Assembly (NCBI GenBank): GCA_036504445.1 | Contig: DASXVE010000006.1 | Location: 1-64,000, forward strand | DNA length: 64,000 nt | Source: Candidatus Aquicultor sp. | GTDB taxonomy: Bacteria; Actinomycetota; Aquicultoria; Aquicultorales; Aquicultoraceae | Reading direction: 5' to 3' | In this document: piece after piece, positions 17,097 to 43,808 of the stretch | Layout: the number at the start of each line of letters is the position of its first letter | How positions within the stretch are numbered: the stretch's first letter is position 1 | Translations under genes and position numbers: made by a program | Notes under the pieces: generated by a model | Database searches by the model: none | Told to the model about the DNA's origin: nothing | Seen by the model: the letters and a program-made list of their open reading frames with translations, nothing else

Positions 17097-17297
17097 GAGC
17101 GGTCTCCTTTACTTAGGTTGTGATATTTATATCCATTCTTACTTTCAACCAATCACAGCACTACTCTTGCAACAGAGCGCAGGACGCTAGATAGCCGGGC
17201 CTTTAAGATTTAGTAAATGCATGTTTTGGGAATAACAAGACGTGCAAATGTCGGAAACATAGGTAAATTTCAACGTCGAAGGCTCGGAGGATGATTA

Positions 17298-18362: not shown

Positions 18363-18424
18363 ATAACTTGTTTGTACTGGCCCATGCATGGGGAAGTTTG
18401 ATGGTCTAAGAGGAGGCTGATAAC

Positions 18425-18880: not shown

Positions 18881-18910
18881 TAATACCTATTATATTCAGG
18901 GGGTTTTATT

Positions 18911-19876: not shown

Positions 19877-20173
19877 AGCTTCAAAGGCGCTTTGCAGGTA
19901 AGCCTATCGCCGGGCAGAAATGTATTCTTTTTGTAAAACGCAATCAACATGCATATACAAATGTATGCCTATCCTGACCAGGAATAATAGCGCATGATAG
20001 CGCATTTCCACAAGCCGAAGTCAAGCAAGCCCTCATTTCTTGATAACAATTTTCCCTATGCTACTGTATTAAATGGCGGCCATACCACAGTAAATGCGCC
20101 GTGTCTTAAGACTGGTTTTCGCTTAGTAGCACACCAAGTGTGCATATGTAACATGTAAGGATAGGAGTGTTTT
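19877..20173. other. Intergenic region before the secreted beta-helix gene
   Basis: No gene seen. It holds a short imperfect palindrome around 19953-19970 (GCATA...TATGC) and a direct repeat ATAGCGCAT at 19987-19995 and 19997-20005, spaced by one helical turn. I looked for a c-di-GMP riboswitch, common before secreted envelope proteins, and did not find its conserved core. Confidence 0.5.
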
Positions 20174-22000
20174 ATGCAAGTAGGGAAAACACAGAAGAGA
20201 CAACGATTTTGGAGGGTTTTAAAAGACGTGAAGTACACACCAAATCATCTAGCACAAGTGGCTCGGAAAAAGTGGATCAAGAAGCCTGTAGTTGCCATAG
20301 TGGCAATGGTCGTAGCTACCCAGCTAACGTTTCCGGTTTTAAATTCTTCAGCGGCAACTTGTACCAACACCGCGGCTACAACCAACAACACGGTTGTAGC
20401 GACAGCGGCAGACGCAACAGTGACTCCATCATCTGTTGCAGCTACCACTGAAACACCAAGTATTCCAGAAGTTCCCAGTATCGTAACCGTTTCGTATCCC
20501 GCAGGATGGAATATGGTTGCGGTTGGCAATGGTGTTGATCTAGGCACCCAGCTGTATGCCTATAATGCTAAGACTGGGACGTATGACAAAGCTGACCCAG
20601 CCGTTATGGGAGCCGGATATTGGGCGTTCTTCTCGAAAGAAACAACGGTAACTATGAACATGAAGTCTACCGGCGAAGCTGCAACAGAGCTTCAAGCAGG
20701 CTGGAACATGGTTGGAAACCCGTTTGACGATGATGCTCTGGTCCCGACCGGCTATGATGCTTATGTCTACAAACAAGCAACAAAGCAGTATAAGTTGACA
20801 ACAACTATTCCTGCAGGTTCCTGTGCTTGGATTAACTCGTCGGTTCCAAAAACGATAACGCTTAAGAAAGAAACCCAGACCGCACCGGTCGATACGACCA
20901 CAAACACCGGTACTGGTAATACAACAGGAACGACAGGAACGGGAACCACAACATCAACGGGTTCCGGATCAAGTGACGGTGGCCAGTATGTGATCACGGG
21001 TGCGACTGTTAATGCTGCCGATTACGGCGCAAAAGGCGATGGTTCCGATAGCACCGGCGCTTTGCAGTCTGCGCTTAATGCTTCAGTCGGCAAAACGCTT
21101 GTTATCCCCAAAGGATCCACATTCGTCAGCGGTACGCTCGATGTGCCGTCAAATGTAACGATTGCAGGCGGGGGTACCATCAAGAAGAGAGCCGGCAGCG
21201 GGCGACACCTGCTTCGGATAGGCGGCAAGTCTAATATCGCGATTCATGATGTCACACTCGATGGCAATGCGAGCGCATTCGGCTTCGATGAATTCCATCA
21301 TATCGTGTGGCTTGCACAAAGCTCGAAAGTCACGTTCGACGGCGTAACATTCGCGAATCCGGTTTCCGACGGTATTAACGTAACCCGTCAGCCGGATCAG
21401 CCAGGAACGGGCTGTGCCGATATCGTGATCAAGAACGATCGTTTCACCGGCAACATGACGAATCGCTGCGGCGTATCGGTCGATTGCGGCGAGCGCATCA
21501 CCATCAGCGGTAATTACTTTTACCGGATGGGCAAAGACAATATGCCTGGCGCCATCGACTTCGAGCCGGTCGCCTCGGGCGATTACTCAAGAGACAGCGT
21601 AGTCGAGAATAATACCATTGTCGGCAGCGCTTCAGCACCGAATGAGCCAATGGGCATCGCCCTTCAAAACGGTAATGTCTACCAGCATAAAAACATCAAG
21701 ATTATCGGCAACAAAATTACCGGTAAGTACCGCCACGGTATCGTTGTCTTTGGCGGCGGCACCGGCATTGTAATTCAAGGCAATACGGTCCGCAATATTG
21801 ATAGCGTCATCAGCCGTGATGTCGATACTCCTTGCGGTATCAGCACGACCAATACACAGGGGACCATCCAGGGCAACACCGTAAGCGATGTTGCGGGTTA
21901 TGGTATCAGGTGCGTCGGTGGCAGCAGTGATATTAGTGGCGGCAATAATAATATTAACAACACTTCGCTCTCAGCAATCATGGGCACGATAAAAAATTAA
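20174..22000 (+). CDS. Secreted right-handed beta-helix (pectate-lyase-like) protein
   Basis: This 608-aa exported protein has a long basic N-terminal region and a hydrophobic signal/anchor at about 37-60 ending LNSSAAT. A Thr/Ala-rich linker follows, then two copies of a domain of about 65 residues starting AGWNMV (110 and 175), then a Thr/Gly linker (240-268). The C-terminal parallel beta-helix starts VNAADYGAKGDGSDSTGALQ (about 279), the usual opening of phage-tail-spike, pectate-lyase and epimerase folds. Location in the polysaccharide locus suggests it binds, cuts or epimerises the polymer. I see no catalytic motif that decides between these. Confidence 0.82.
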   Translation: MQVGKTQKRQRFWRVLKDVKYTPNHLAQVARKKWIKKPVVAIVAMVVATQLTFPVLNSSAATCTNTAATTNNTVVATAADATVTPSSVAATTETPSIPEVPSIVTVSYPAGWNMVAVGNGVDLGTQLYAYNAKTGTYDKADPAVMGAGYWAFFSKETTVTMNMKSTGEAATELQAGWNMVGNPFDDDALVPTGYDAYVYKQATKQYKLTTTIPAGSCAWINSSVPKTITLKKETQTAPVDTTTNTGTGNTTGTTGTGTTTSTGSGSSDGGQYVITGATVNAADYGAKGDGSDSTGALQSALNASVGKTLVIPKGSTFVSGTLDVPSNVTIAGGGTIKKRAGSGRHLLRIGGKSNIAIHDVTLDGNASAFGFDEFHHIVWLAQSSKVTFDGVTFANPVSDGINVTRQPDQPGTGCADIVIKNDRFTGNMTNRCGVSVDCGERITISGNYFYRMGKDNMPGAIDFEPVASGDYSRDSVVENNTIVGSASAPNEPMGIALQNGNVYQHKNIKIIGNKITGKYRHGIVVFGGGTGIVIQGNTVRNIDSVISRDVDTPCGISTTNTQGTIQGNTVSDVAGYGIRCVGGSSDISGGNNNINNTSLSAIMGTIKN

Positions 22001-22027
22001 TTGAGCCTTGTAGTAGAAAGTAATCCC

Positions 22028-22057
22028 AAAAGGGGGCCATTTTGGCCCCTTTTTTTG
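22028..22057 (+). terminator. Rho-independent terminator
   Basis: AAAGGGG-GCC pairs with GGCCCCTTT around a short loop and runs into seven T. It ends the beta-helix gene transcript. Confidence 0.9.
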
Positions 22058-22358
22058 TTTTCAAACCCGCACGGCTAAGACTGTCCTTCACGTGAATACA
22101 TCACTCGTAACGCTCACATATCCACTCATTTTCGGCAGTAATGACATGGTAGGCCAATGTTTAAGGTCACGCCATATGGAAAAACATATACATGAACTAG
22201 TTAAGCCTACAATAGCTATGAGCTAGGCATTATCGGGTAGAGCATACCTGATTAAGAAGCCGGCTGTAGTGTGAGCGAAAGAACCTGCTGGAAGGTGAGA
22301 TAACTGCAATACAAGCGAATTTGCCATTTTGTTTTAAGTCGCAACGGAGTGATTTTTC
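22058..22358. other. Intergenic region before the flippase gene
   Basis: About 300 bp with no gene seen. A TACAAT-like -10 box lies near 22209 and the start of the flippase at 22359 has CGGAGTG upstream. The region must carry the promoter of the long glycosyltransferase operon; I could not fix its -35 box and recognise no RNA element. Confidence 0.4.
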
Positions 22359-23888
22359 ATGTCGGAATATAACTCTCGCGAGTTAACGCGCGGCACCCTT
22401 CTAGCACGGAATACCATCCTTAACATCACAGGACAAGTCCTTCCTATGGTGGTCGCCGTTTTCGCTATACCGCTTCTGGTTAAGGGGCTCGGCACAGAGC
22501 GCTTCGGATTGCTGACCTTGATATGGGCGATTGTCGGGTATTTCAGCATATTCGATCTAGGGCTCGGACGCGCCCTGACCAAGCTCGTGGCCGAAAAACT
22601 GGCGTCTGAACAATCAAACGAAATCCCGTCCTTGTTTTGGACGTCGGTATCGTTGATGTTTCTTTTAGGGCTGGTAAGTGCGGCAGTGTTAGCTATATCT
22701 ACGCCGTGGCTGGTCCGCGACGTCCTGGGAATTTCTAAGAAACTACAACCGGAAGCGCTTCTTTGCTGCTACCTTCTGGCAATATCCATGCCAATTGTCA
22801 TCAGTACCATGGGCTTGAGTGGTTTTCTTGAAGCGCACCAGCGGTTTCCGGTAATCAACGCTATTCGCGTGCCGATGGGCATTTTTACCTTTATAAGCCC
22901 TCTCGTGATGCTGTATTTCTATAAGGGCCTCGTGCCCGTAGTAGCAATTCTCGTTTTTGGCCGATTGGTGGCCTGGCTGGCCTATGCAATGTCATGCTTG
23001 ACTATGGTGCCTCAGTTGCGGCGGCGCATTATCATAAATTATCGCCTGGTCTCGTTTTTGTTCAAATTCGGGGGCTGGATCACGGTAAGCAATACCATCA
23101 GCCCGGTCTTACTCTACCTCGACCGGTTTCTAATCGCGGCTTTAGTGTCCACCGTTGCCGTGGCCTACTACGCAACACCTTACGATTTAATGATGAGAAC
23201 CCTGATTATTTCAACCGCATTTGTCGGCGTGCTATTTCCGGCGTTTACGACGAGCTTTACACAAGACCGTGAACGGGCGTTGAAACTTTTCATGAGGGCA
23301 ATTAAGTATATTTTCCTGCTTATGTTTCCGCTGACGTTTTTTGTTATTATATTTGCTCGCGAAGGCCTCAACCTCTGGCTTGGCGCTGAGTTCGCTACGC
23401 ACAGCACGCGCGTTCTTCAATACTTGGCTGTAGGCATTTTTGCTAACAGCCTGGCACAGGTGCCCGTGAGCCTCATCCAAGGCATGGGGCGTCCGGACCT
23501 GACGGCGAAACTGCACCTTATCGAACTTCCTCTTTACGTGGGGTTTGTGGTTTTAATGATACGGTCATTCGGCGTGGAGGGTGCGGCTATCGCTTGGATG
23601 CTGCGTGTAACCATCGATATGCTGTTTCTTTTTACCGTACTTCGAGTGGTATTAAGGCAGGATGCGCTACGGTTAGGAAGGGCGGCACTCGTCTTTACGA
23701 CTGCCGGGCTATTGCTTGTTCTTGCTTTTGCACAGTTAGGAGCCGCTCTCAAGGCGATGTTTCTTATGATCGTATTTATAACCTTTGTGCTGACGGCTTG
23801 GTTCCGGCTATTAGCGCCGGAGGAGCGCTCGCTTATTCAGGGCTGGTTGCGGTTGCCATCGTATTCTCAAGGACCGGAGGCTAAATAA
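22359..23888 (+). CDS. wzx: Polysaccharide flippase, Wzx/MOP superfamily
   Basis: This 509-aa integral membrane protein of the MOP/MATE-like polysaccharide transporter family has about 12-14 hydrophobic helices and the N-terminal signature NTILNITGQVLPMVVAVFAIPLLV. It would flip lipid-linked repeat units to the outer membrane face. It is the first gene of a tightly packed operon (22359-31975) that includes the polymerase and glycosyltransferases, so its substrate is the sugar assembled by the downstream enzymes. Confidence 0.88.
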   Translation: MSEYNSRELTRGTLLARNTILNITGQVLPMVVAVFAIPLLVKGLGTERFGLLTLIWAIVGYFSIFDLGLGRALTKLVAEKLASEQSNEIPSLFWTSVSLMFLLGLVSAAVLAISTPWLVRDVLGISKKLQPEALLCCYLLAISMPIVISTMGLSGFLEAHQRFPVINAIRVPMGIFTFISPLVMLYFYKGLVPVVAILVFGRLVAWLAYAMSCLTMVPQLRRRIIINYRLVSFLFKFGGWITVSNTISPVLLYLDRFLIAALVSTVAVAYYATPYDLMMRTLIISTAFVGVLFPAFTTSFTQDRERALKLFMRAIKYIFLLMFPLTFFVIIFAREGLNLWLGAEFATHSTRVLQYLAVGIFANSLAQVPVSLIQGMGRPDLTAKLHLIELPLYVGFVVLMIRSFGVEGAAIAWMLRVTIDMLFLFTVLRVVLRQDALRLGRAALVFTTAGLLLVLAFAQLGAALKAMFLMIVFITFVLTAWFRLLAPEERSLIQGWLRLPSYSQGPEAK

Positions 23889-24893
23889 GTGGATGATCTT
23901 GTAGCGAGTCGATCTAAAGAGGCAAAGGTAGGGATCGTAATTCTTAACTGGAACAACTACAAAGATACAGCCCGTTGTCTTCGCTCGCTGGAGTGCGTCG
24001 ACTATCGCAGCTATGTCATCTACTTGGTCGATAATGGCTCGACCGATGATTCGATGAGCACGCTGATGGCCCAATTCTCAAAACGAGACATTGAGTTCAT
24101 TCTGAACGGCGAGAACTTAGGTTTTGCTGCGGGCTGCAACCGCGGTATCGCGCGTGCGCTAGACGATAATTGCGACTACGTACTGCTTCTGAACAATGAT
24201 TGCGTCGTCAAGGACACGGCTTTTCTCACAACAGCCGTAGAGTTCGCCGAGCATCACCCCGAGTTCGGCATCTTTGGCGGAAAGATACTGTTTTGGCCGG
24301 ATACGCAGCGGATATGGAGCGTTGGGGGCAGCATATCGAATTGGGGCAATGAAACATACATCGGCTTCAATGAGGTCGACGAAGGCCAATATGAAACAGC
24401 GGAAGAACGGAGTTTTATATCCGGCGCGCTCATGCTTATAAAACGGGAAGTCTTTTCTGCGATCGGTCTCTTGCCGGACGTCTATTTCTTCGGCCTCGAG
24501 GACTGGGAATACTCTACGAGAGCGATTCGAGCCGGCTATAAGTTAGCGTATAATCCAAAGTTCACCGTTTGCCATGAGGCAAATCATTCTCACGACACTA
24601 CCGATCCCGTGTATGTGTATAACTATACCTTATCTAAAATCATCTACAAAAAGCGTAACTTGCCCCGGTATCGTTTTGCCGCCTGGGGTTTCGCGTACAA
24701 AACGTATCTCCATGCTTTTTTCTCGCTTAAGTACAGGGCGCAAAAGCAAAAGTACGTACCCGGCATTAGCGCGCGCATGATCCGGCAAAGCATGCTTCAG
24801 GCGCTTTCGGATTCGAATAGAATCGACAGGATCACAGAAGATACATTGCTTGATTTCCGGCGAAATTTTGAGAAAAAGGATCCACTTAAATGA
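23889..24893 (+). CDS. Glycosyltransferase family 2
   Basis: This GT-A fold enzyme adds sugar to the lipid-linked chain. It shows VGIVILNWNNYKDTARCLRSL at the N-terminus, VDNGSTDDS, and the metal-binding region around LLNNDCVV, followed by FFGLEDWEYSTRA. This is the WcaA/rhamnosyltransferase-like group, so rhamnose transfer is plausible given the rfb genes, but donor and linkage cannot be read from sequence. The start is GTG at 23889. Its end overlaps the next gene by four bases (ATGA). Confidence 0.88.
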   Translation: MDDLVASRSKEAKVGIVILNWNNYKDTARCLRSLECVDYRSYVIYLVDNGSTDDSMSTLMAQFSKRDIEFILNGENLGFAAGCNRGIARALDDNCDYVLLLNNDCVVKDTAFLTTAVEFAEHHPEFGIFGGKILFWPDTQRIWSVGGSISNWGNETYIGFNEVDEGQYETAEERSFISGALMLIKREVFSAIGLLPDVYFFGLEDWEYSTRAIRAGYKLAYNPKFTVCHEANHSHDTTDPVYVYNYTLSKIIYKKRNLPRYRFAAWGFAYKTYLHAFFSLKYRAQKQKYVPGISARMIRQSMLQALSDSNRIDRITEDTLLDFRRNFEKKDPLK

Positions 24894-26170
24894 GCGAACA
24901 AAGACTAAGTACACTCGATGCGATTCGGTGGTTGGGATGTTTGCAGCTAGCCCTGATGCCGATCGTATCTTTAGCTGATAGAATCGAGCTCTTCAACATA
25001 GCGGGGCTCTCCATTAGGCCGGTTGATGTACTTTTTGTTCTAGCGTGCCTAACCTTAGCGGCTTATATACTCATGCTCGGCAAGATACCGAAGACCCTGC
25101 CTCTGTTTTTGTACGTGCTCGCTCTTTATGCACTTCTTTCCTTAACCAGCTTCGCATTCTTAGTTGGGTATGACGTCGATTGGGCTACGTTTTCTCGTTT
25201 TATTGAGACGATGCTCTGGGGTGGTCTTGCTCTAACGTTTATTAAATCGATGCAGGACTTAAAAGACTTCACCAATAACTTGGCCATTGCCGGGTCCGCT
25301 ATCGGCATTTATTCACTTTACCTATATGTAACGGTACCCGGGCTTCATCAAATCGCCGGTTTTATCTCGTATGCCGGCGGCGAAGGTCTCAAATACCAGG
25401 CAAGTTATAACGAAATAGGTGCTGTGCACGCGCTTGCCTGCATCTTGTTGCTTCATAACATAGTTGCACCGGATCCTCGCGAGGAGAAAAGAAATCTTCG
25501 CCCGGTATATTCTGTAACGTTACTTGCCTTTAACCTTATCGGTTTAGCGCTGACTCAGTCCCGCAGCGCAATGTTGGCATTCTTTGCCACGGCGCTCATT
25601 TTGTCTCTGGTGCTGGTGAAGAGGTCTGCGACTGAAGGAAGGCGGACAAAGCGCGCGGCAGTATTGCTGATACTGGTTATGAGTATTGCTATCACCTTAA
25701 GCTATTTTATCTCCCAAGACCTAACGATAAATCGGTTTACTGAGTCTTTTACCCAGGGAACGGTCGCACGTTCATCGATAGAAGGGCGCTTTGACCTATG
25801 GATACGAAGTTTAAACATGTGGCTTTCAGACCCGGTTGCCTTTCTTTTCGGTTTTGGCAACAATACATTCCATCAACTTTTAAATGCGACCACATCTGAT
25901 AGTTTCTTTCTGGACCATGGCGTATCCGACGGCTTACTTGGGCTTATCATATTGCTTGCTCTCATCGTCGGGCCCGTTCTGAAGATTCAACGAATGGAAA
26001 GATACTCGAGACTTGTTCGTATTGCGCTGCTGGTTACGTGCATAGCGCTCATAGTTTCCCTAACCGGAAACGTGCTGGTAGACCCATTTTACGGGGGCTT
26101 AACATTTACTATACTATATGGCGCACTATCAGTAGCTATGCACTATAGAACAACGGGAGCGGCCGGATGA
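24890..26170 (+). CDS. O-antigen ligase/polymerase-like membrane protein (Wzy candidate)
   Basis: This 426-aa protein has about 11-12 membrane helices and a larger outer loop near residues 270-330. The segment LALTQSRSAMLAFF is the Wzy_C/O-antigen-ligase type signature. With Wzx before it and the Wzz/BY-kinase nearby it is the natural polymerase of the locus. Sequence alone cannot exclude a ligase role. It overlaps its neighbours by ATGA on both sides, indicating strict translational coupling. Confidence 0.8.
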   Translation: MSEQRLSTLDAIRWLGCLQLALMPIVSLADRIELFNIAGLSIRPVDVLFVLACLTLAAYILMLGKIPKTLPLFLYVLALYALLSLTSFAFLVGYDVDWATFSRFIETMLWGGLALTFIKSMQDLKDFTNNLAIAGSAIGIYSLYLYVTVPGLHQIAGFISYAGGEGLKYQASYNEIGAVHALACILLLHNIVAPDPREEKRNLRPVYSVTLLAFNLIGLALTQSRSAMLAFFATALILSLVLVKRSATEGRRTKRAAVLLILVMSIAITLSYFISQDLTINRFTESFTQGTVARSSIEGRFDLWIRSLNMWLSDPVAFLFGFGNNTFHQLLNATTSDSFFLDHGVSDGLLGLIILLALIVGPVLKIQRMERYSRLVRIALLVTCIALIVSLTGNVLVDPFYGGLTFTILYGALSVAMHYRTTGAAG

Positions 26171-27297
26171 AAGTAGTTTTGATCCCAGCATCGCCAGAGC
26201 GTGTCGGCGTCGGGGTGCATGTTCTCAATCTTGCATCCTTGCTTCATGATGCCGGTCTGTTAGACGTGGTAATATGCCCCGGCGAAGGATGGCTGACCGA
26301 ACAGCTTGAAGATGAGCGGTTGCCGTTCACAACGCTCGCAATTTCTTTTAAACCGGCTCAGTTTATAAGCTCGAATATACGGCTGTTTAGATACCTAAAG
26401 TCACGGCCTTCTGCCAGTGTCGTTCACGTTCACGGCCGTTTCCCGCTTTTCGTCTCCTCATTATCGATGGTCCTTTCTGAGAACTTGGCTTTTGTAAGCA
26501 CCGTGCATCAGTTTTCAGATTCAGAAGGTTCCGGTTTAGAGAATCAAAAAACCGGAATCGAGACGTTTCTTCTTAAGAGGTTGCGGCGCATATGCTGTGT
26601 TTCCGAGGCGCTCAGGGTGCAGGTTATCACCCGTTTAGGGGAAGATCATAGGGCAAAGATCGACTATATTCCAAATTGGATTCGACCGGTTGAGTCGCGG
26701 CAGGGAGATGTCGACCGCATGACAGTTGACGACAACAGGCATGCGTCTAAGAAGCATATTAAGATCTGCACGGTCGGTCGGCTTGTAAGAGACAAAGGGT
26801 TCGATGTACTGATTGAAGCCATGGCTGTTTTACACCAGAGAGGTTTTGAGGCGAGCTGCCATATATTTGGTGCGGGCTTAGATGAGGAACACCTGGCGAA
26901 TCTGATAGGCGAGCGCGGACTATCAGGTATCGTTGAGCTCAAGGGCAGGTGCTCTGATATCCAGAGAACCCTTCCCGCTTATGATCTGCTTGTTATCCCT
27001 TCGAGAAGCGAGTCGTTCAGCCTTGTTGCCCTGGAGGGATTTAACGCAGGACTGCCGATAATAGCGAGCGACATACCGGGCTTAAACGAAACGGTTCTGG
27101 CCGATACAACAGGCCTTCTCTTCGAAAAAGAAAATGTTGAAGCGCTTGTAGACTGTATCATGCGTGTTACGGCATCCGATGATTTGGCTAGAGCCCTGAT
27201 TCTTAACGGCAATAAGTTCCTGCAAGATTATATTCCCAGCGAGCAGCTTCTCGCTAAGTTTATTAGATTTTACAAGGAAGCGTATGAGAAAAATTAA
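26167..27297 (+). CDS. Glycosyltransferase family 4
   Basis: This GT-B fold enzyme has an N-terminal acceptor domain (GVGVHVLNLA), a hinge with VGRLVRDKGFDVLIEAM and a donor site with IPSRSESFSLVALEGFNAGLPI, which contains the family E-x7-E motif. The 376-aa length is standard. It transfers an unidentified sugar during repeat-unit assembly on the cytoplasmic side. It overlaps the polymerase gene upstream and the next GT downstream by 14 bp. Confidence 0.88.
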   Translation: MKVVLIPASPERVGVGVHVLNLASLLHDAGLLDVVICPGEGWLTEQLEDERLPFTTLAISFKPAQFISSNIRLFRYLKSRPSASVVHVHGRFPLFVSSLSMVLSENLAFVSTVHQFSDSEGSGLENQKTGIETFLLKRLRRICCVSEALRVQVITRLGEDHRAKIDYIPNWIRPVESRQGDVDRMTVDDNRHASKKHIKICTVGRLVRDKGFDVLIEAMAVLHQRGFEASCHIFGAGLDEEHLANLIGERGLSGIVELKGRCSDIQRTLPAYDLLVIPSRSESFSLVALEGFNAGLPIIASDIPGLNETVLADTTGLLFEKENVEALVDCIMRVTASDDLARALILNGNKFLQDYIPSEQLLAKFIRFYKEAYEKN

Positions 27298-28402
27298 TGT
27301 TTTACTATTAACCCGATACAGCCGGTCCGGCTCTAGCAGCCGTCTGCGTTTTTATCAGTACTTACCGGCACTGAACGCAGAGTCCATTAACGTCACTATT
27401 GCACCTTTGCTTAGCGACGGTTATATCGACGATCTTTATAGCGGCCGGAAGAAAAGCGTGGCGCCGATTCTCAGCAGCTACCTCCGGCGTATCCGGGATG
27501 TTCTCAAGAGCAAGCAATTCGATGTTTTATGGATTGAAAAGGAGATTATCCCGTGGGCGCCTGCATGGGCGGAAGCGATTCTGGCTCGCCTAAAGGTGCC
27601 GTATGTTGTTGATTATGATGACGCTACGTTTCACGCCTATGATACGAATACCAATCCGGTGATCCGCAGGCTATTAAACAAGAAGATTGATCATGTGATG
27701 AAAAACGCCTCACTGGTTGTTGCCGGAAATGAATATATAGCGGAGCGGGCACGTACGGCAGGGGCTAGACGTATCGAGTGGATGCCTACGGTTATCGACC
27801 TCAATCGTTATCCATTAATGCAAGCACCACCCAATCAGGTTTTTACGATCGGGTGGATCGGCGCACCGGTTACCGCACGGTATTTGGAGCTGGTACAACC
27901 CGCGCTAGCTGAAATCTGCAAAGATGGGAATGCGCGATTGGTACTTGTAGGGGCCGGGAATATAAAGCTGTCGGACGTTCCGACTAAAGCGCTGTGCTGG
28001 TCTGAGGAGACGGAGGTTTCGGAGATTCAGGGTTTTAATGTTGGAATTATGCCCCTGGCCAACAATCATTGGGAACGCGGTAAATGCGGGTATAAATTGA
28101 TCCAGTATATGGCGTGCGCAAAGCCCATAGTTGCTTCACCGATCGGGATAAATCAGCGCATAGTAGCACACGGGGTAAACGGGTTTTTAGCGAGCACCAA
28201 AGAAGATTGGGTCGAGGCGTTACGTGAACTGCGCGATAAGCCCGCATTACAAGAAACAATGGGAAAGGCAGGCCGAGCGCAAGTAGAAAAGCGATATTGC
28301 CTGCAAGTAACGGCGGCTGATATGGCGGCGTTACTCCGTTCGGTGGTTATCCCGGATGCCGGAGAAAAGACGGTGCTAAAGAAGGAGGGAAGGGCAGCGT
28401 GA
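27284..28402 (+). CDS. Glycosyltransferase, GT-B fold, family 4-like
   Basis: This 372-aa GT-B protein starts INVLLLTRYSRSGSSSRLRF, with VDYDDATFHAY in the N-terminal domain and a donor-binding segment GIMPLANNHWERGKCGYKLIQYMACAKPIVASP. The E-x7-E pattern of classical GT4 is altered here to a K-rich GKCGYKLIQYM form seen in a subgroup near WbnK-like enzymes. It overlaps the previous gene by 14 bp and the next by 4 bp. Confidence 0.85.
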   Translation: MRKINVLLLTRYSRSGSSSRLRFYQYLPALNAESINVTIAPLLSDGYIDDLYSGRKKSVAPILSSYLRRIRDVLKSKQFDVLWIEKEIIPWAPAWAEAILARLKVPYVVDYDDATFHAYDTNTNPVIRRLLNKKIDHVMKNASLVVAGNEYIAERARTAGARRIEWMPTVIDLNRYPLMQAPPNQVFTIGWIGAPVTARYLELVQPALAEICKDGNARLVLVGAGNIKLSDVPTKALCWSEETEVSEIQGFNVGIMPLANNHWERGKCGYKLIQYMACAKPIVASPIGINQRIVAHGVNGFLASTKEDWVEALRELRDKPALQETMGKAGRAQVEKRYCLQVTAADMAALLRSVVIPDAGEKTVLKKEGRAA

Positions 28403-30090
28403 ACAGGTTCATGAAGCGAGCTATGGATATTATCGGATCGGCGATCGGGATAGTTGTTTTGTCTCCCGTTCTGGCGGCAACAGCGATAGCCGTACTGTAT
28501 TTCATAGGGTGGCCTATATTGTTTACTCAGGTAAGGCCAGGCATGAACGCTATGCCCTTCACAATATATAAGTTTCGCACGATGACGAACCAACGGGATA
28601 AAAACGGCGATTTGCTTCCCGACGACGATCGTCTGACTAAAGCCGGGCGTTTTTTACGGCACTGGAGTTTAGACGAACTGCCGCAGCTGTTTAATGTTCT
28701 TAAAGGAGATATGAGCCTCGTTGGGCCCCGGCCGACACTTACACAATATGTGGCGAGATACACTCCGGAGCAGATGCGGCGGTTCGAAGTGAAACCGGGC
28801 ATGACAGGATTGGCACAGGTAAATGGTCGAAACGCGCTTCTTTTTAGCGAGCGTCTCAAATATGATATCGAATACGTAAAGAGTTTTAATGTAGTGAAAG
28901 ACCTTCAGATTATCCTATTGACCGTATATAAATTATTGTTTAAGCGCCTTGATGATGGGGCCGGGCAGGATGCCGTCTCGGTAGATGATATCGGCCTTAG
29001 CAGTTCCAGCCATTCTGCTATCATGCAGCAAACACACTGGCAGAAACGGCATAGAGCGCAGAGTGGCGGTCACGTTCTACTGCCGAATGGCGGTAGATGG
29101 GTAGGGTTAGCATTGCAATTAAAACAGACTATGCGCGACACAGCAGCGTTATCTGATAGTAAGCTTATCGTTGCAGATAAGGACGAGCTGACTCCGGCAA
29201 GTTGTTTTGCCGATGAGACGCTGGTTCTGCCGGCCTTTAATGAGCCTGACTTTATCGAGCGTCTTGAAGATGCTTGTATGCGGTTCGGCGTGGGCATTGT
29301 TATTCCCACGATGGATTTAGCACTCAGTAGGATTGCACCCCATAAGCAGCGTTTTGCCGAAGAGGGTATAACGGTGGCATGTCCTGAACCGCACCTCGTT
29401 GACTTATGCCTGGATAAACTGCAATTTGCCGCATTTATTGAAGAGGAAGCACTTCCGCAACCCAAGACATATGCGAAAGCTGAGCTGGATTTTGCAGACT
29501 ACCCCATCTTTTATAAACCGAAACGCGGATTCGGCTCACAGGGGTGCGGAACCTGCAAATCCGTTGCAGAGGCGAAACAACTATTGAATGCTAATCCGGA
29601 TATCATCTTTCAGCAGTTTATCGATGCCAAGGAAGTCAGCGTCGACGCGTATATCACATCTACCGGGGCATGTAATGTGTGCGTACCGCGCATACGCGAT
29701 AAAGTCATAGGCGGCGAAGCGTATATTTCGCATACAATTGGCTCTCGACTCGTACGGGACGTCGCATACCGCCTGATCGATTCGCTGTCACGCCGGGGCT
29801 TGCGGGGCCCCTTAAATATTCAGATGTTCGTGCAGGGCGATAAACCCACATTAATTGAGGTTAATACGAGAATCGGATCGGCCACTGTTCTAGCCAACAT
29901 CGCCAGCCGTGGAAGGCTCTTTTCCTCATTACTCTTGGAGGCCTGCGGGGAACAGGCTGGCGGTGATCCGGATGATTACATAGAGAACGTCCGCCTCTAT
30001 CGTTTTTTGGGTGATGTTTTCCACGTTGGTTCTGAAGTTATCGAGGTAATACCTTCTGGGAGCCGGGTTCATGATAAGCAGGTTGTTTAA
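28399..30090 (+). CDS. Phosphoglycosyl transferase (PglC/WcaJ type) fused to ATP-grasp ligase domain
   Basis: Residues 1-185 are a monotopic phosphoglycosyl transferase: a re-entrant hydrophobic N-terminus, KFRTM, the catalytic Asp92-Glu93 in SLDELPQLFNVLKGDMSLVG and PGMTGLAQVNGR. Such enzymes load the first sugar phosphate onto undecaprenyl phosphate. After a linker, residues 223-540 form a carbamoyl-phosphate-synthase/PylC-like ATP-grasp unit. It has FYKPKRGFGSQG (ATP lysines 373 and 375), QQFIDAKEVSVDAY and LIEVNTRIGSATV (metal ligands Glu487 and Asn489). ATP-grasp enzymes join a carboxylate to an amine or thiol. The frame is continuous with no sign of a sequencing join. The GTG start overlaps the upstream gene. 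Confidence 0.88.
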   Translation: MNRFMKRAMDIIGSAIGIVVLSPVLAATAIAVLYFIGWPILFTQVRPGMNAMPFTIYKFRTMTNQRDKNGDLLPDDDRLTKAGRFLRHWSLDELPQLFNVLKGDMSLVGPRPTLTQYVARYTPEQMRRFEVKPGMTGLAQVNGRNALLFSERLKYDIEYVKSFNVVKDLQIILLTVYKLLFKRLDDGAGQDAVSVDDIGLSSSSHSAIMQQTHWQKRHRAQSGGHVLLPNGGRWVGLALQLKQTMRDTAALSDSKLIVADKDELTPASCFADETLVLPAFNEPDFIERLEDACMRFGVGIVIPTMDLALSRIAPHKQRFAEEGITVACPEPHLVDLCLDKLQFAAFIEEEALPQPKTYAKAELDFADYPIFYKPKRGFGSQGCGTCKSVAEAKQLLNANPDIIFQQFIDAKEVSVDAYITSTGACNVCVPRIRDKVIGGEAYISHTIGSRLVRDVAYRLIDSLSRRGLRGPLNIQMFVQGDKPTLIEVNTRIGSATVLANIASRGRLFSSLLLEACGEQAGGDPDDYIENVRLYRFLGDVFHVGSEVIEVIPSGSRVHDKQVV

Positions 30091-30784
30091 AGGCATTATA
30101 TTTGATTTAGACGATACGCTGTATCGCGAAATAGATTTCTTCAGAAGCGGTTTTTCTGAAGTTGCGCGCAAGCTGGAAGCGCGAGGCGTCGGCAACTCAC
30201 GCGACACCTGCGGCTTGCTTGAAGACATTCTTTTTAATGAAGGCCGGGATTTCATTTTTGAAAAAGCCGCTGTACGCTTAGGGTTTTCCGAATCTTGGGT
30301 GAGGGAGCTTGTCGAATTGTTTCGTGAGCACATTCCGAGCATCGAGTTGGCAGATGATGCAAAGAGGGTACTGCCCTTATTAAAGCGCACGTACTTGTTG
30401 GGCTGTGTTACCGATGGGCACGCTCGGGTGCAGCGCAGGAAAATTGAAGCGCTCGGTGTCGCCCCGTTATTTGATGCCGTCGTTGTAGCCGATGACCTTG
30501 GCCGCGGGCACTGGAAGCCAGACCCGCTGCCTTTTAAGGTTTGCTGCGGCCAACTCGGATTAACGACCGGCGAGACGGTTTACGTGGGCGATAACGTAGA
30601 AAGAGACATCCAAGGAGCGAAAAATTTGGGCATGCGGAGCGTTTTGCTCCGCCGCGAGGATGCATACTTTACCTTGCGTCCGGCAAGCACAGAACATAGC
30701 GCAGATGTAGAGATAACTACGCTTTATCAATTAGGAGATGCGCTAGCCAGGCTTTTGTATAAGAGCATACGAAGTTATAAGTAG
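30071..30784 (+). CDS. HAD-superfamily phosphatase
   Basis: This is a class I HAD hydrolase of 237 aa with all four motifs: I FDLDDTLYR, II VTDG, III in GHWKPDPLPF and IV VYVGDNVERDIQGAKN. It likely removes phosphate from a sugar or amino-acid derivative. It overlaps the ATP-grasp fusion gene by 20 bp, so the two are made together. A phosphatase paired with an ATP-grasp ligase suggests processing of an acyl-phosphate or phospho-sugar substrate, but the substrate is unknown. Confidence 0.85.
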   Translation: MISRLFKGIIFDLDDTLYREIDFFRSGFSEVARKLEARGVGNSRDTCGLLEDILFNEGRDFIFEKAAVRLGFSESWVRELVELFREHIPSIELADDAKRVLPLLKRTYLLGCVTDGHARVQRRKIEALGVAPLFDAVVVADDLGRGHWKPDPLPFKVCCGQLGLTTGETVYVGDNVERDIQGAKNLGMRSVLLRREDAYFTLRPASTEHSADVEITTLYQLGDALARLLYKSIRSYK

Positions 30785-30799
30785 ATGGAAGGATAAGCA

Positions 30800-31975
30800 A
30801 TGGAAGGAAATGCAGCTGAATGCAGATCACCACGTGTAAAGCATGCAGAGGTATGGCTGGGCGCTGGTTTCGATACACAAGCCGGTGAGAATCATGAATA
30901 TAAAGAATACGGATCTGATTTTCATTTACTATTAACAGACCAGGCAAATGATATAGCTGAACAACCATGGCATAAGAACGGATTGCTTTTTGGGACCGGA
31001 CGAGATGCGTTTCGTGCATTGCTTACATACGGTATGAAGGAACGTGGATGGCGACGTTTTTTAGTCCCCAGCTACTTTTGTCAAAGAGTCGTCGCTTCGT
31101 TTCTGACGACCGGCATTGACGTAGTCGCGTATGAGGATAACCCGACCCTGCCAGCCCCAAGGTGTGAAAACATTGAGCTGAAATCAGGCGACGTAGTTCT
31201 TGCGGTTAACTATTTTGGTCTGCGCCCGGCTACGGATATCAAAGCTATTTATGGGAATGACATAGAGGTAATCGAGGATCATACGCATGATCCGTGGTCC
31301 GATTGGGCTTATAACAGTACGGCAGACTGGTGCGTGGTGTCTTTAAGAAAAATGCTGCCGGCACCCGACGGCGGGGTACTGTGGTCGCCTGCCGGCCATC
31401 CAATGCCTTATCCGACAAAGCTAAGCGACGGCCACAGACAAGCATCGCTTGAGAAGCTCGCAGCAATGTCGCTTAAAGGCCTCTACTTGAATAATCAGTC
31501 TATTAACAAGGAAGTTTTTCTCCGGCTTGCCAGGTCTGGTGAGGCGCAGATTGCCTCGGGTGAAATATCCGGCATTTCTGATTGGAGCGGGAGTATGCTC
31601 AATATATTCCCAACACAACTGTGGCGCCGGCAGAGGCGGTTAAACTATCAGGCATTATATGATGTATTAGCAGATGTCTCATGGCTTACTATGTTTAGGG
31701 CTGAAGAGAATATAGGTAGTTGCCCGTTTTCGGGCATAGTCGTATTTAATACACCCGGACGGCGGGCATATATACAACAGAAGCTGATTGACTCGCATAT
31801 CTATACCGCGGTTTTATGGCCGCTCGAAAATCCGGCAGTTAAGGGAATCGACCAGGCGGGCTTAGATCTTAGTCGCAGGATGATATCGGTCTATTGCGAT
31901 ATGCGCTACAGCACAAAAGATATGTCTTACGTAGGCTCACGCATCAAAGAGATCGGTGCTTCGTATCGCGAGTAA
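30800..31975 (+). CDS. Divergent DegT/DnrJ/EryC1/StrS-like PLP protein
   Basis: This 391-aa protein with an aminotransferase-like fold is only distantly related to sugar aminotransferases. The core shows GTGRDAFRALL (cofactor phosphate turn), SYFCQRVVASF, VIEDHTHDP (Asp160, expected to contact the pyridine nitrogen) and VVSLRKMLPAPDGG (Lys184, the candidate Schiff-base lysine; StrS-type enzymes have S-x-x-x-K-x-x-x-x-G-x-G-G). The match is convincing in order and spacing but the residues between differ from DegT enzymes. Amination of a keto-sugar is possible, as is a non-transaminase role. Confidence 0.7.
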   Translation: MEGNAAECRSPRVKHAEVWLGAGFDTQAGENHEYKEYGSDFHLLLTDQANDIAEQPWHKNGLLFGTGRDAFRALLTYGMKERGWRRFLVPSYFCQRVVASFLTTGIDVVAYEDNPTLPAPRCENIELKSGDVVLAVNYFGLRPATDIKAIYGNDIEVIEDHTHDPWSDWAYNSTADWCVVSLRKMLPAPDGGVLWSPAGHPMPYPTKLSDGHRQASLEKLAAMSLKGLYLNNQSINKEVFLRLARSGEAQIASGEISGISDWSGSMLNIFPTQLWRRQRRLNYQALYDVLADVSWLTMFRAEENIGSCPFSGIVVFNTPGRRAYIQQKLIDSHIYTAVLWPLENPAVKGIDQAGLDLSRRMISVYCDMRYSTKDMSYVGSRIKEIGASYRE

Positions 31976-32063
31976 GCAATATGTTTTTGAACGTATGGCA
32001 TCGCAGCCTTAATACCGGTAAAAAGCTGTGTTGAGTCCGCATGCGGCTGAAAGGGGGATACGT

Positions 32064-33119
32064 GTGACAGCTGAGTTCATAACACCGGATGATAAACGAT
32101 GGGTTAAGTTCTTAGAACAAACCACGTACGATTTTTACCACCTCCCGGAATATGTAGAACTAACCGCTCAATATGAAGGTGGTATGCCGGTTGCATTTTA
32201 TGCGGAAGCCGGCGATTACAAGTTCTTAGCGCCTCTTCTAATACGCGGCGTACCTGCTGTTTTAGAAGCGCCACACCAGTGGTATGATGCCGCTTCACCA
32301 TACGGGTATCCGACACCGTTAATAACCCCGTTCGCCGATGCCCCCGCCCTTGATAGTTTCTTTAGGTCTTTTAAAGAGGTCGGAGTCCAATCGGGCATAG
32401 TGAGTGCGTTTTTTCGATTGCACCCGCTGTTAAGTCTTCCAACAGAGCAAATGGCTCAATATGGCTTGCTGGTAGCTCATGGTCAAACCGTCTATATCGA
32501 TCTGTCACAGTCCATGGAAGAGTTGTGGACGCAGAAAGATCGCGACCATAAAAGAGACATTAAACGGCTTGTTGGGGCGGGATTTTCGGCCAGAATCGAT
32601 GATTGGGATCTTTATGATAGTTTCATTGCACACTACCGGGAAACGATGGAGCGAGTGTCGGCCAGCGAATCATATTTCTTTCCCAACAGCTATTTTTACG
32701 ATTTTAAGTCTGTGTTGGGAAGCGCGTGCCATTTATGCTCGGTTTTGACCGATGACGGCAACGTCGCGTCATCAGTCTTATTCACTACCGTTAACGGCAT
32801 TGTTCAATACCACCTCTCCGCGACTTTGGGCGCATACAATAAACTTGCGCCGTCAAAGCTTGCCTTTGAAACGGCATGTATCTGGTCGAAAGAACATGGC
32901 AATAAGTACGCTCACCTTGGCGGAGGGGTTGGCGGTAAAAAAGACTCGCTCTTTAGATATAAGTCCGGGTTTTCGAAACGGCGGGCCGATTTTTATACGT
33001 TTAGGATGATCCTGGAAGGACAACGGTATGCCGATCTTACAAATCGCTGGCGAAATCGGGTCCAGCCTGAGGGCTTGAGCGATGACTTCTTCCCTGATTA
33101 CCGAAAAAACTGCGCTTGA
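32064..33119 (+). CDS. FemAB/GNAT-like acyl- or aminoacyltransferase
   Basis: This 351-aa protein resembles the FemAB-related GNAT (PF13480-like) group. It has an N-terminal half with FYHLPEYVELTAQYEGG and LAPLLIRGVP, a DHKRDIKRLVGAGFSARI helix, and a C-terminal GNAT core VASSVLFTTVNGIVQYHLSAT with GGGVGGKKDSLFRYKSGFS. Members transfer acyl groups or amino acids from aminoacyl-tRNA. I chose GTG 32064, with AAAGGGGG just upstream, over an earlier start at 32028 without a site. Its place after the ATP-grasp, HAD and DegT-like genes suggests decoration of the glycan. Confidence 0.75.
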   Translation: MTAEFITPDDKRWVKFLEQTTYDFYHLPEYVELTAQYEGGMPVAFYAEAGDYKFLAPLLIRGVPAVLEAPHQWYDAASPYGYPTPLITPFADAPALDSFFRSFKEVGVQSGIVSAFFRLHPLLSLPTEQMAQYGLLVAHGQTVYIDLSQSMEELWTQKDRDHKRDIKRLVGAGFSARIDDWDLYDSFIAHYRETMERVSASESYFFPNSYFYDFKSVLGSACHLCSVLTDDGNVASSVLFTTVNGIVQYHLSATLGAYNKLAPSKLAFETACIWSKEHGNKYAHLGGGVGGKKDSLFRYKSGFSKRRADFYTFRMILEGQRYADLTNRWRNRVQPEGLSDDFFPDYRKNCA

Positions 33120-33178
33120 GATGACATCAACCGGCGGAAAGAGATATGTCCGTCTACCCAGAGAGGGGATTCAGATAC

Positions 33179-34336
33179 ATGCGATTGCTTATACTTACCA
33201 CAATAGCACCGACCATCCGGGGCTTTCTTATGCCGTTTGCCCAGCATTTTCGCAATCTGGGCTGGCAGGTCGACGCTATGGCCAATGGCGTTTCCAACTG
33301 CGATGATTGCCGGGCTAACTTCGATAACATATGGGAGGTGGCATGGTCTCGTAGTCCATTAGACGTAAATAACTTCAGCCGTTCTATCAACCGTGTCCAA
33401 TCCCTCGTACGGCAGAATAAATATGATATTGTCCACGTACACACACCGGTTGCGTCATTTGTAGCCAGACTGGCCTTACGAGAAGTTCGGCTACAGGGCA
33501 AACTCAAGGTTGTCTATACCGCACACGGTTTCCACTTTTACAAAGGCGGTTCGCCGCTTAAGAATACGGCCTTTCGTAGTCTGGAAAAACTGGCCGGCCG
33601 TTGGACCGATTATCTTGTGGTTATGAATCAGGAAGACAGAGAGGCGGCATTACGATACCGTATTGTTGCCCCCGATCGCGTACGGTATATGCCGGGGATC
33701 GGTATAGATACGGCGCTTTATAATGCAGAGCAAATAACCGAACCGGCGATCGCCGCAGTAAGGTCGGAGATCGGCCTAGGGAAGAACGAGCCGCTTTTTG
33801 TTATGGTGGCGGAGTTCATTCGGCGCAAGCGACACAAGGTCGTACTGCAGGCATTTGCCCGCTTAGCGCATCGGAGAGCCCACCTTGCCCTGGTCGGCGA
33901 CGGCCCGTTGATGGACGAACAACGTGCGCTCGCCCAAGAATTGGGTATCGTGGAGCGGGTCCATTTCATGGGGCATCGCAATGACGTATCTACTATCATG
34001 AGAAGCTCGGTTGCGACACTATTGCCTTCTGTGCAGGAAGGTCTTCCTCGTTGCGTTATGGAATCGATGAGCCTGAAAACTCCGGTTATTGGGTCGGATA
34101 TTCGCGGAACCCGGGATTTATTATGCGATGATTGCGGTCTATTAGTAAGAGCAGGGGACATAGAAGGTTTCGCACGCGCCATGTCGTGGATACTTGCGAA
34201 CCCTGATAAGGCGCGCGCTATGGGGTTTCGCGGCCACGCAAAGATAGTAACCGGGTTTGATACGAGGAATATTGTTGCGCTCCACGAGCGCCTCTACGCG
34301 GACGCTGTAGGAGAAGAGCTACCGTTTGCCGGCTAG
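33179..34336 (+). CDS. Glycosyltransferase family 4
   Basis: This GT-B enzyme has N-terminal RLLILTTIAPTIRGFLMPFA, then YTAHGFHFYKGG and HKVVLQAF, and the donor site LLPSVQEGLPRCVMESMSLKTPVIGSD with the E-x7-E pattern. It resembles capsular GT4 enzymes that act with PglC-type initiating transferases (PglA-like second-sugar enzymes). I chose ATG 33179, preceded by GAGGGGA, over the earlier in-frame ATG 33146. It is convergent with the methyltransferase gene and overlaps it by four bases. Confidence 0.88.
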   Translation: MRLLILTTIAPTIRGFLMPFAQHFRNLGWQVDAMANGVSNCDDCRANFDNIWEVAWSRSPLDVNNFSRSINRVQSLVRQNKYDIVHVHTPVASFVARLALREVRLQGKLKVVYTAHGFHFYKGGSPLKNTAFRSLEKLAGRWTDYLVVMNQEDREAALRYRIVAPDRVRYMPGIGIDTALYNAEQITEPAIAAVRSEIGLGKNEPLFVMVAEFIRRKRHKVVLQAFARLAHRRAHLALVGDGPLMDEQRALAQELGIVERVHFMGHRNDVSTIMRSSVATLLPSVQEGLPRCVMESMSLKTPVIGSDIRGTRDLLCDDCGLLVRAGDIEGFARAMSWILANPDKARAMGFRGHAKIVTGFDTRNIVALHERLYADAVGEELPFAG

Positions 34337-35289: not shown

Positions 35290-37128
35290 TTACGCCGCCG
35301 GGAAAAGATAATTATTGTTGAGATACTCCGAAAAACGCTTTGCATCTCCTCTAATAACCGCGTCTTCGAGCTCGTTGAGGAACGCCGTTAGTATGTTTTC
35401 ATTGAGCTTGCTTGATACCTTAAAGATTTGCGGATGATCCGTCTTCTTTGCAATCTCTTCTTGTGCGAACAGTTCCTCATAGAGCTTCTCGCCCGGTCTC
35501 AAGCCGGTGAATTTTATCGGTACGTCCCGTCCCGGCTCTAAACCCGATAACCTGATGACGCTCATTGCTAAATCGACGATCCGCAGCGGCTCGCCCATAT
35601 CAAGAACAAAAACTTCACCGCCTCTACCCATGGCTGTTGCTTGAATGACGAGGTGCACCGCTTCCTGAATAGTCATAAAGTATCTGGTAATATCCGGGTG
35701 TGTAACCGTTATGGGCTCTCCCTTACTAATCTGGCGCTTGAATTTCGGTATTACGCTTCCATTGCTGCCCAGTACGTTGCCGAACCGGACGGCCATAAAT
35801 TTAGAGGCACAATCCGGTTCCCTGGCTGCAGCTCGTATTGATTGCTCTGCCAGGTGCTTTGATAAACCCATAATACTTGTTGGGTTAACTGCTTTATCGG
35901 TCGATATCAGCGTCAGCCGTTTAATATGATGGTGTTTAGTTTCCTCGATTAGCACACGCGTACCGAGAAAGTTGTTTTCCATTGCTTCAATCGGATGCCG
36001 CTCCATCATAGGTACATGTTTATATGCGGCCGCATGAAAGACGATATCCGGTTCGTAACGAGTAAATATCCTGCTCACGGCGTGGCTGTCTCTCACATCC
36101 ATGACGCGGGCTTCAAATATCGTTCTATGACCGTTCAGCGAAGAAAAAATTTCCTCCTCCAGATGATACAAACCGTTTTCCGAGATATCGGTGGCGATTA
36201 CTTTCTTTGGACGGAGCATCAGCGCTTGCCTGCAGATCTCAGAACCAATCGACCCGGCGGCCCCCGTTATAAGGATTACGTGTTTCTCATACTGTTTGAC
36301 TGTCCCCATAAGGTCGATCTCGGCCTCTTTTCTACCGAGAACTTCCTTAGGGTCGATATCACGTATTTGGGATACGCTCACTTTGCCGTCGACAAGTTCC
36401 GCGATATCCGGGATAGTTTTGCAAGGGATGCCCAGCTCACGGCATTCACACGCGAGGCCTTGCCGTTTGCTGCTCTCAGCCGACGGCATAGCCATGATGA
36501 TCTCGTCGGCAGGGTAGTCGGCCATGATGCCCGGGATCATTCTTGCGCTGCCGACGACCTTGACCCCGTGGATCATAAGGCCTCGTTTTGATAGATTATC
36601 ATCCAGGAATGCCACCGGTTTGTATCCCATATCCGGGTTACACTGCATCTGCTTAACGAGCATACTGCCGGCCTGCCCGGCCCCAACAATAATGACGCGT
36701 TTTTGTTCGATGCTATGATTACTCATCTGTGCTCTTAAAGTCGGCAATAAGTCTTGCTTCGCCCTGACGAGAAACCTGCTGGCTCCGATAAAGGCGGACG
36801 TTAGAAGCCAATCGATAATGAGAATACCCCTGGGCAGCTCGATGCTCTGAATCAAGAAAACCGCGCAAAGGAGTAGAAGAGTAGCTGCCAGTACACCTTG
36901 TGCGATTCTCATGAGTTCTTTTAAGCTCGCATATTGCCACAGCTGGCTGTAAAACCCGGAGAACTTAAAGACGGCGATTTTAATAACGATTGCGAGTGGA
37001 AGCAAAAGAAAGAGCGATGTCATATACACAGGCTTGATATCTGTGCCGAACCTCAGCAAAAACGCCAAAAATAATGCTAGGCCGATAAGGAATGCATCGC
37101 TTATTATATATACATATCTCCTGATCAT
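35290..37128 (-). CDS. CapD/FlaA1-type nucleotide-sugar 4,6-dehydratase, membrane form
   Basis: The N-terminal 110 residues have four membrane helices, then a CoA-binding-like Rossmann region (VIIVGAGQAGSMLV). The SDR dehydratase domain starts ILITGAAGSIGSEICRQ at about 285. The catalytic region reads AAAYKHVPMMERHP and STDKAVNPTSIMGLSKHLAE, with Met in place of the usual Tyr, as known in PglF/CapD/FlaA1 enzymes. The usual reaction is UDP-GlcNAc to UDP-4-keto-6-deoxy-GlcNAc. Together with a PglC-type transferase and a DegT-like protein this points to an amino-deoxy sugar such as a bacillosamine or fucosamine derivative. Confidence 0.92.
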   Translation of the reverse strand: MIRRYVYIISDAFLIGLALFLAFLLRFGTDIKPVYMTSLFLLLPLAIVIKIAVFKFSGFYSQLWQYASLKELMRIAQGVLAATLLLLCAVFLIQSIELPRGILIIDWLLTSAFIGASRFLVRAKQDLLPTLRAQMSNHSIEQKRVIIVGAGQAGSMLVKQMQCNPDMGYKPVAFLDDNLSKRGLMIHGVKVVGSARMIPGIMADYPADEIIMAMPSAESSKRQGLACECRELGIPCKTIPDIAELVDGKVSVSQIRDIDPKEVLGRKEAEIDLMGTVKQYEKHVILITGAAGSIGSEICRQALMLRPKKVIATDISENGLYHLEEEIFSSLNGHRTIFEARVMDVRDSHAVSRIFTRYEPDIVFHAAAYKHVPMMERHPIEAMENNFLGTRVLIEETKHHHIKRLTLISTDKAVNPTSIMGLSKHLAEQSIRAAAREPDCASKFMAVRFGNVLGSNGSVIPKFKRQISKGEPITVTHPDITRYFMTIQEAVHLVIQATAMGRGGEVFVLDMGEPLRIVDLAMSVIRLSGLEPGRDVPIKFTGLRPGEKLYEELFAQEEIAKKTDHPQIFKVSSKLNENILTAFLNELEDAVIRGDAKRFSEYLNNNYLFPAA

Positions 37129-43684: not shown

Positions 43685-43808
43685 GACTATACCAATCAAC
43701 TTTGTTTAAGCACGATTCTTTAACGGCGAGGCAAGCAAGGCTCTGATATAATCATTCTATGATTTACTCATATGCAGCAAAGTAAAATATCGTTTTTTGG
43801 AGGTGCGG

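Follow-up and report, generated by a model that had tools for sequence, protein, structure and literature searches.

The closest known counterpart of the fusion protein reported here is PglB2 of Neisseria, an 'ATP grasp/phosphorglycosyl-transferase' (PMC11130364) whose N-terminal domain is a phosphoglycosyl transferase (PGT) and which makes glyceramido-acetamido trideoxyhexose (GATDH) (PMC11130364, PMC6959607). PglB2 works with a dehydratase and a transaminase that supply the 4-amino sugar (PMC11130364, PMC6959607), the acid being glycerate, and ORF8 is inserted together with pglB2 in Neisseria. Neisseria PglB is likewise a bifunctional initiating enzyme that combines 4-amine acylation with sugar loading, but it has an acetyltransferase domain in place of the ATP-grasp ligase.

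We analyzed a 64,000-nucleotide stretch of a Candidatus Aquicultor genome (contig DASXVE010000006.1, positions 1 to 64,000; hereafter the window), in which a single open frame at 28399-30090 on the plus strand encodes a 563-amino acid protein that joins a PglC-type PGT to an ATP-grasp ligase of the PRK12767/2pn1 type. An earlier reading of the sequence alone had taken this combination to be unknown, a claim that fails because PglB2, as described, matches it in architecture and in the type of chemistry proposed: both proteins carry an N-terminal monotopic PGT and a C-terminal ATP-grasp domain on one polypeptide. However, the setting of the window gene differs: it belongs to a polysaccharide locus, and the genes after it are HAD, DegT-like and FemAB-like. 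By analogy, we regard the fusion as a distant variant of the PglB2-type design with unusual partner genes and not as a new kind of enzyme. We consider it reasonably probable that the fusion is bifunctional and starts glycan synthesis for a Wzx/Wzy-type polysaccharide locus, coupling ATP-dependent acylation of a UDP-4-amino-sugar, on its 4-amino nitrogen, with transfer to undecaprenyl phosphate (Und-P).

Domains and continuity of the fusion protein

28399 to 28947, plus strand: PglC-type monotopic phosphoglycosyl transferase domain (residues 1-183)
28948 to 29064, plus strand: inter-domain linker (residues 184-222), in frame and coding-like
29065 to 30090, plus strand: ATP-grasp ligase domain, PRK12767/2pn1-type (residues 223-563)

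The N-terminal half is an intact PglC-type transferase, as had been proposed. Bac_transf (PF02397) matches residues 6-180 at 205.7 bits, PglC structures 8g1n/8e37 are matched at E 2e-59, and the catalytic DE pair (D92/E93) is intact. In the C-terminal half, PylC-like_N (PF21360) covers residues 250-326 and ATP-grasp_3 (PF02655) residues 337-493, and the structure model of this half (pLDDT 91.4) has 2pn1 as its best fold match (TM 0.79/0.87). The model covers the ATP-grasp half only; separate PGT and ATP-grasp rows were misaligned against the full fusion. Alignment of conserved columns with relatives shows that Lys340, Lys373, Glu412, Asn489 and Arg491 are kept, including the conserved lysines and the Asn/Arg metal and substrate motif of the 2pn1/PRK12767 branch, and that the full set of nucleotide and metal residues is retained. 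The sequence-only reading had named Lys373/375, Glu487 and Asn489 as the marks of an intact domain. Lys373, Glu487 and Asn489 are indeed present, and Lys373 and Asn489 are invariant across the relatives aligned, but position 375 is not conserved: 13 of 14 relatives have Arg where the window protein has Lys. It is Lys340 that provides the other conserved lysine.

Two features of this half count against a PglB2-type reading. Its identity to unfused relatives is 22-27%, and the loop after Asn489 carries the changes F492I, G494S, P497V and G504R, at positions that are kept in 14-15 of 15 relatives. In addition, the best of the NCBIfam models PRK12767.1-4 scores 182.5 bits, missing its curated cut-off of 390 by a wide margin, and several ATP-grasp relatives lie away from any PGT, one setting being a PseC-containing cluster (L076). 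Unrelated partners and a poorly conserved pocket had been named beforehand as grounds for doubting the proposal, and these relatives and the altered loop go part of the way in that direction. It is therefore conceivable, though we think it unlikely, that the fusion is real and its ATP-grasp half is catalytically weakened or acts on another substrate, for example by joining an amino acid to a different sugar or, once transfer has taken place, to the lipid-linked one. Nevertheless, retention of all the nucleotide and metal residues, and the presence of unfused PGT-ATP-grasp gene pairs in 12 of 25 genome loci, argue against this alternative.

The fusion was seen in one assembly. Among 397 genomes of the same phylum no other PGT-ATP-grasp fusion was found: long-open-frame ATP-grasp matches in four genomes (G285, G209, G138 and G382), checked as fusion candidates, were not joined to a PGT. 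A scan of genome contigs with the fusion protein returned matches to the PGT domain only, and a search of a plasmid collection listed no fused protein. Furthermore, in a genome of the same family (G004) the two halves are parted by a single TAA. Loss of such a stop codon, or of a short gap between two ordinary neighboring genes, through a sequencing or assembly error could conceivably have produced the open frame. However, the linker of about 39 codons is coding-like in frame (codon-usage score of 0.10, versus -0.14 and -0.90 off frame), and its sole internal ATG (29023) is not preceded by an SD-like or other obvious ribosome-binding sequence. One polypeptide is thus the simplest reading, and with PglB2 as a natural precedent for the fused state we consider an artefact very improbable. 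A one-off assembly join, which had been raised as a possible objection, does not fit in the strong sense, since many genomes have PGT and ATP-grasp genes side by side, even if none but this one showed them fused.

The polysaccharide locus and PGT-ATP-grasp-HAD cassettes

14859 to 28402, no single strand: remaining polysaccharide locus (Wzz/kinase-like, RmlD, NTP_transferase (RmlA-like), RmlC-like, RmlB, beta-helix protein, Wzx-like, GT2, Wzy-like and two GT4 genes)
30071 to 30784, plus strand: HAD-type phosphatase (PF13419, 81.5 bits), overlapping the fusion gene by 20 bases
33146 to 34336, plus strand: GT4 glycosyltransferase, whose orthologue adjoins the PGT in G004 and G008
35290 to 37128, minus strand: PglF/WbpM-type nucleotide-sugar 4,6-dehydratase (PF02719, 377 bits, and CoA_binding_3)

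The HAD protein has all four motifs intact (DLDDT, VTDG, WKPD and GDNVERD), which upholds its reading as a HAD phosphatase, and a homologue lies immediately 3' of the ATP-grasp gene in seven other loci. Orthologues of the GT4 gene were found beside the PGT in L066 and L068 (480 and 509 bits), and L073 has a match of 463 bits; this enzyme probably adds the second sugar. The PglF-type gene, homologues of which sit within PGT-ATP-grasp cassettes L077 and L079, is the likely source of a UDP-4-keto sugar. The putative partner transaminase is encoded in trans, unlike in the PglB2 precedent: a DegT orthologue that is 70.5% identical to the cassette DegT of G004 lies on another contig of the window genome (C19:108678-109787). 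This location and the opposite strand of the PglF-type gene make the substrate assignment an indirect one.

Complete cassettes with these functions are present in Bacillota and Bacteroidota. In Priestia filamentosa the contiguous order is PglF-DegT-PGT-ATP-grasp-HAD, and in Phocaeicola it is PGT-ATP-grasp-HAD-DegT-PglF, also contiguous. In G004, from the same family as the window genome, the order is GT4c-PGT-ATP-grasp-HAD-DegT. These cassettes, and that of G049, share functions and order with the window from PGT through HAD, but their PGT and ATP-grasp genes are separate and a standard DegT replaces the DegT-like/FemAB-like pair. Where the ATP-grasp gene is absent, a GNAT takes its place (G001, with a PseH match, G003 and Priestia megaterium), as would be expected if both acylate the 4-amine.

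The PglB2-type reading is thus supported by the domains and their residues, the PglB2 precedent, the recurring cassettes, the DegT on C19 and the GNAT replacement. From these we infer an order of reactions in which the PglF-type dehydratase would first form UDP-4-keto-6-deoxy-GlcNAc and the DegT transaminase would convert it into a UDP-4-amino sugar. The ATP-grasp half would then use ATP to join a carboxylic acid, which is glycerate in the Neisseria precedent, to the 4-amine, and the PGT half would transfer the sugar-1-phosphate onto undecaprenyl phosphate. On this reading one protein handles the initiating sugar of a surface polysaccharide twice: it puts the sugar on its lipid carrier and probably also links an acid to it. 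An amide-forming step on the first sugar, coupled to Und-P loading, was what the sequence-only reading had suggested, and that part agrees with the domains, the cassettes and PglB2. The most likely role of the HAD protein would be to remove phosphate from the acid before ligation or from the acyl group after it, and its recurrence hints, in a way that can be tested, at the acid donor. Starting a glycan by ATP-driven acylation and lipid loading is probably not limited to protein glycosylation in Neisseria; such initiation is probably a widespread polysaccharide option, mostly divided over a pair of genes, with a HAD protein as a frequent partner.

The DegT-like and FemAB-like genes

30800 to 31975, plus strand: very divergent DegT-superfamily PLP (fold type I) protein
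32028 to 33119, plus strand: FemAB/Acetyltransf_6-type acyl- or aminoacyl-transferase

The DegT-like protein has no match in Pfam, with PF01041 (cut-off 19.8 bits) giving none even at E 10, and no sequence match in the PDB, where a profile search gave chance matches only. It is tied to the DegT/DnrJ/EryC1/StrS family solely by intermediates and fold: homologues in G016 match PF01041 (E 2.4e-19 and 8e-8), and in a fold comparison its structure model hit sugar transaminases as well as NifS-like proteins, with a probability of 1.00. Both predicted active-site residues are present, and the Schiff-base lysine, Lys184, is invariant in six homologues, but the PLP-ring aspartate, Asp160, is Asn in a close homologue (G006). 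The neighboring transferase, proposed as FemAB/GNAT-like, proved FemAB-like by a profile match to FemX (4ii9, E 2.5e-8); PF13480 is matched by all four family members (best E 1.3e-16), the window protein alone reaching 21.1 against a cut-off of 22.

The genes from the fusion to the FemAB-like gene share a strand and are tightly spaced, with an overlap or short gaps, which would suit one pathway-specific unit building a new amino-acylated sugar, as first proposed. However, the conserved-looking module of four genes did not hold up: the full set was found together nowhere else among the loci compared, and its halves recur separately. In Priestia megaterium (Bacillota) and in the relatives G001, G003 and G006, the DegT-like and FemAB-like genes occur together but ATP-grasp is missing; G016 has related pairs, and many loci have ATP-grasp and HAD without the pair. 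A single unit is accordingly improbable. The DegT-like and FemAB-like genes are a separate recurring pair, and the window combines two modification sets. A literature search found no description of this pair as a modification set, and its PLP member is the protein that escapes Pfam.

The pair may constitute a second modification set, separable from the first, which would introduce another amine and/or an acyl or aminoacyl group. More speculatively, and on present evidence rather doubtfully, both sets could act on one lipid-linked sugar, with ATP-grasp and HAD ligating not glycerate but some different hydroxy or phosphorylated acid, after which the DegT-like and FemAB-like proteins would aminate and aminoacylate the sugar, to give a doubly N-acylated first sugar that has so far not been described. 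The sets of Priestia megaterium, G001 and G003 resemble the window in having the same divergent DegT-like and FemAB-like genes 3' of the PGT, but in them the GNAT occupies the place of the window's ATP-grasp and HAD. A related set in Deinococcus proteolyticus has its PGT fused to a GT4, and its DegT gene encodes a 320-amino acid PF01041 member that the DegT-like profile does not match.

The phosphoglycosyl transferase/ATP-grasp fusion

The module opens with a gene that carries both a PglC-type phosphoglycosyl transferase (PGT) half and an ATP-grasp half, and this gene is followed by an intact HAD gene (20-base overlap), a DegT-like gene and then a FemAB-like gene.

28399-30090, + strand, fusion gene, GTG start, 563 aa
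Fusion residues 6-180, match to Bac_transf
Fusion residues 250-326, match to PylC-like_N
Fusion residues 337-493, match to ATP-grasp_3

The nearest solved relative of the PGT half is PglC (8g1n, E 2e-59), and that of the ATP-grasp half is 2pn1, a stand-alone 'carbamoylphosphate synthase large subunit'-like ATP-grasp protein. D92/E93, K373, E487, N489 and R491 are all found in the fusion protein. Among 15 relatives, N489 and R491 are invariant, as are K340 and K373 wherever the position is present; 13 of 14 relatives have Arg at position 375.

An assembly error could conceivably generate an open frame of this kind, an explanation that we consider very unlikely. The linker scores 0.10 bits per codon in frame, which is coding-like (0.05 marks the 5% quantile for windows that are truly coding and -0.006 the 95% quantile for those read off frame), and no SD-like sequence lies 5' of its sole internal ATG. 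Across 397 phylum genomes, no other PGT/ATP-grasp fusion was found. The family also includes genome G004, where a single TAA, with a GTG immediately after it, divides the counterparts of the two halves. The window fusion can thus have originated when a stop that parted two neighbouring genes was lost.

Pairing in other genomes and proposed chemistry

A whole-genome search that used just the ATP-grasp half as query collected 25 loci. A PGT is located directly upstream, within 600 bases and on the same strand, at 12 of these (window included), and HAD directly downstream at five; four plasmid loci (L077-L080) were excluded from the counts, having been chosen for matching.

Priestia filamentosa, complete cassette PglF-DegT-PGT-ATP-grasp-HAD
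Phocaeicola massiliensis, complete cassette PGT-ATP-grasp-HAD-DegT-PglF
G004 and genome G049, complete cassette PGT-ATP-grasp-HAD-DegT
Segatella copri, same genes as the complete cassettes, two short glycosyltransferase genes interposed
Leisingera, ATP-grasp-HAD

The PGT-ATP-grasp-HAD locus of a Segatella copri plasmid (L078, 713-4611) also encodes an alanine racemase, together with an acyl carrier protein and a protein for amino-acid adenylation, which may point to chemistry involving alanine. A second, unfused ATP-grasp relative in the window genome (L076, contig C25, 8255-9271) sits in a sugar cluster that includes a PseC-like transaminase. In genome G209 (L120, 51-2678), an open frame of 875 aa ends in a same-branch ATP-grasp; the first ~580 residues of this frame matched no Pfam family and are possibly a long spurious frame 5' of the real start.

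The sequence-only reading had proposed the fusion combination as novel. Judged from published descriptions, PglB2, the bifunctional Neisseria enzyme of the GATDH pathway, already has the same architecture and presumed chemistry, and therefore that main novelty claim fails. New here are the apparently distant sequence, a polysaccharide setting outside Neisseria, the association with HAD and the joining to the DegT-like/FemAB pair.

ATP-grasp enzymes convert a carboxylate to an acyl phosphate that is passed to a nucleophile, usually an amine. A PglF-type dehydratase together with a DegT transaminase would supply a 4-amino sugar; the window encodes a PglF/WbpM-type dehydratase (35290-37128), and contig C19 of the same genome carries a 70.5% identical orthologue of the standard DegT found in the cassette of G004. 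The GT4 gene after the module is the orthologue of the GT4 adjoining PGT in G004 and a further genome, G008. On a 4-amino sugar, the simplest reaction for the ATP-grasp half would be 4-N-acylation; the same reaction, with glyceryl as the acyl group, is the one put forward for PglB2 (PMC6959607, PMC11130364). The presence of the HAD partner hints that the acid or acyl intermediate may be phosphorylated, as in phosphoglycerate, and the loop at 492-504, altered relative to unfused relatives, suggests that the acid may differ from theirs.

The DegT-like/FemAB pair

Pfam gives no match for the DegT-like protein, even with the threshold at E 10; its homologues in genome G016 match PF01041. The structure predicted for it (pLDDT 73) matches sugar transaminases of fold type I as well as NifS-like proteins. 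The (S)(L/P)RK motif holding Lys184 is kept in all eight relatives compared, and Asp160 is replaced by Asn in genome G006. A DegT-like gene is followed by a FemAB/Acetyltransf_6 gene in the window, G001, G003, G006 and Priestia megaterium, where the DegT-like protein is annotated 'hypothetical protein', and the two adjoin at two loci in G016. The members of this recurring DegT-like PLP family that were scanned, in four loci, have no Pfam match, and each adjoins a FemAB/Acetyltransf_6 gene.

L148, 5890-6987, DegT-like
L067, 9251-10360, DegT-like
L069, 10149-11249, DegT-like
L071, 10456-11556, DegT-like

Several DegT-like/FemAB loci have GNAT instead of ATP-grasp and HAD; the G001 GNAT in this place matches PseH. 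A comparable set in Deinococcus proteolyticus comprises GT4-PGT, GNAT, a truncated DegT and a FemAB-like gene; its 320-aa DegT matches PF01041 and not the DegT-like profile. In Cetobacterium PglF-DegT-PGT is directly followed by a FemAB-like gene. Given that the ATP-grasp/HAD and DegT-like/FemAB sets are found apart elsewhere, the window is a combination of two gene sets.

At the same initiation step, a GT4-type glycosyltransferase is fused to the PGT N-terminus in three genomes.

L067, 7298-9208, GT4-PGT fusion (G006)
L074, 784-2625, GT4-PGT fusion (G030)
L149, 2470-4305, GT4-PGT fusion (Deinococcus proteolyticus)

Host lineage and other window features

The best rRNA matches of the 16S RNA in the plasmid collection show ~67-68% identity over ~70% of its length, with the best bit scores among the matches listed being to Arthrobacter and Nonomuraea, and the host lineage looks deep-branching. 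The gene itself (L147, contig C23 of the window genome, 2046-3729) measures ~1684 bases, exceeding the model by roughly 150, and is distant from every rRNA gene compared. Elsewhere in the window, a 608-aa beta-helix protein, possibly a polysaccharide-acting enzyme, is encoded between the rhamnose genes and a Wzx-like flippase, and a methylase gene is located beyond the polysaccharide locus.

20174-22000, beta-helix protein
43797-45431, Eco57I-type restriction-modification methylase
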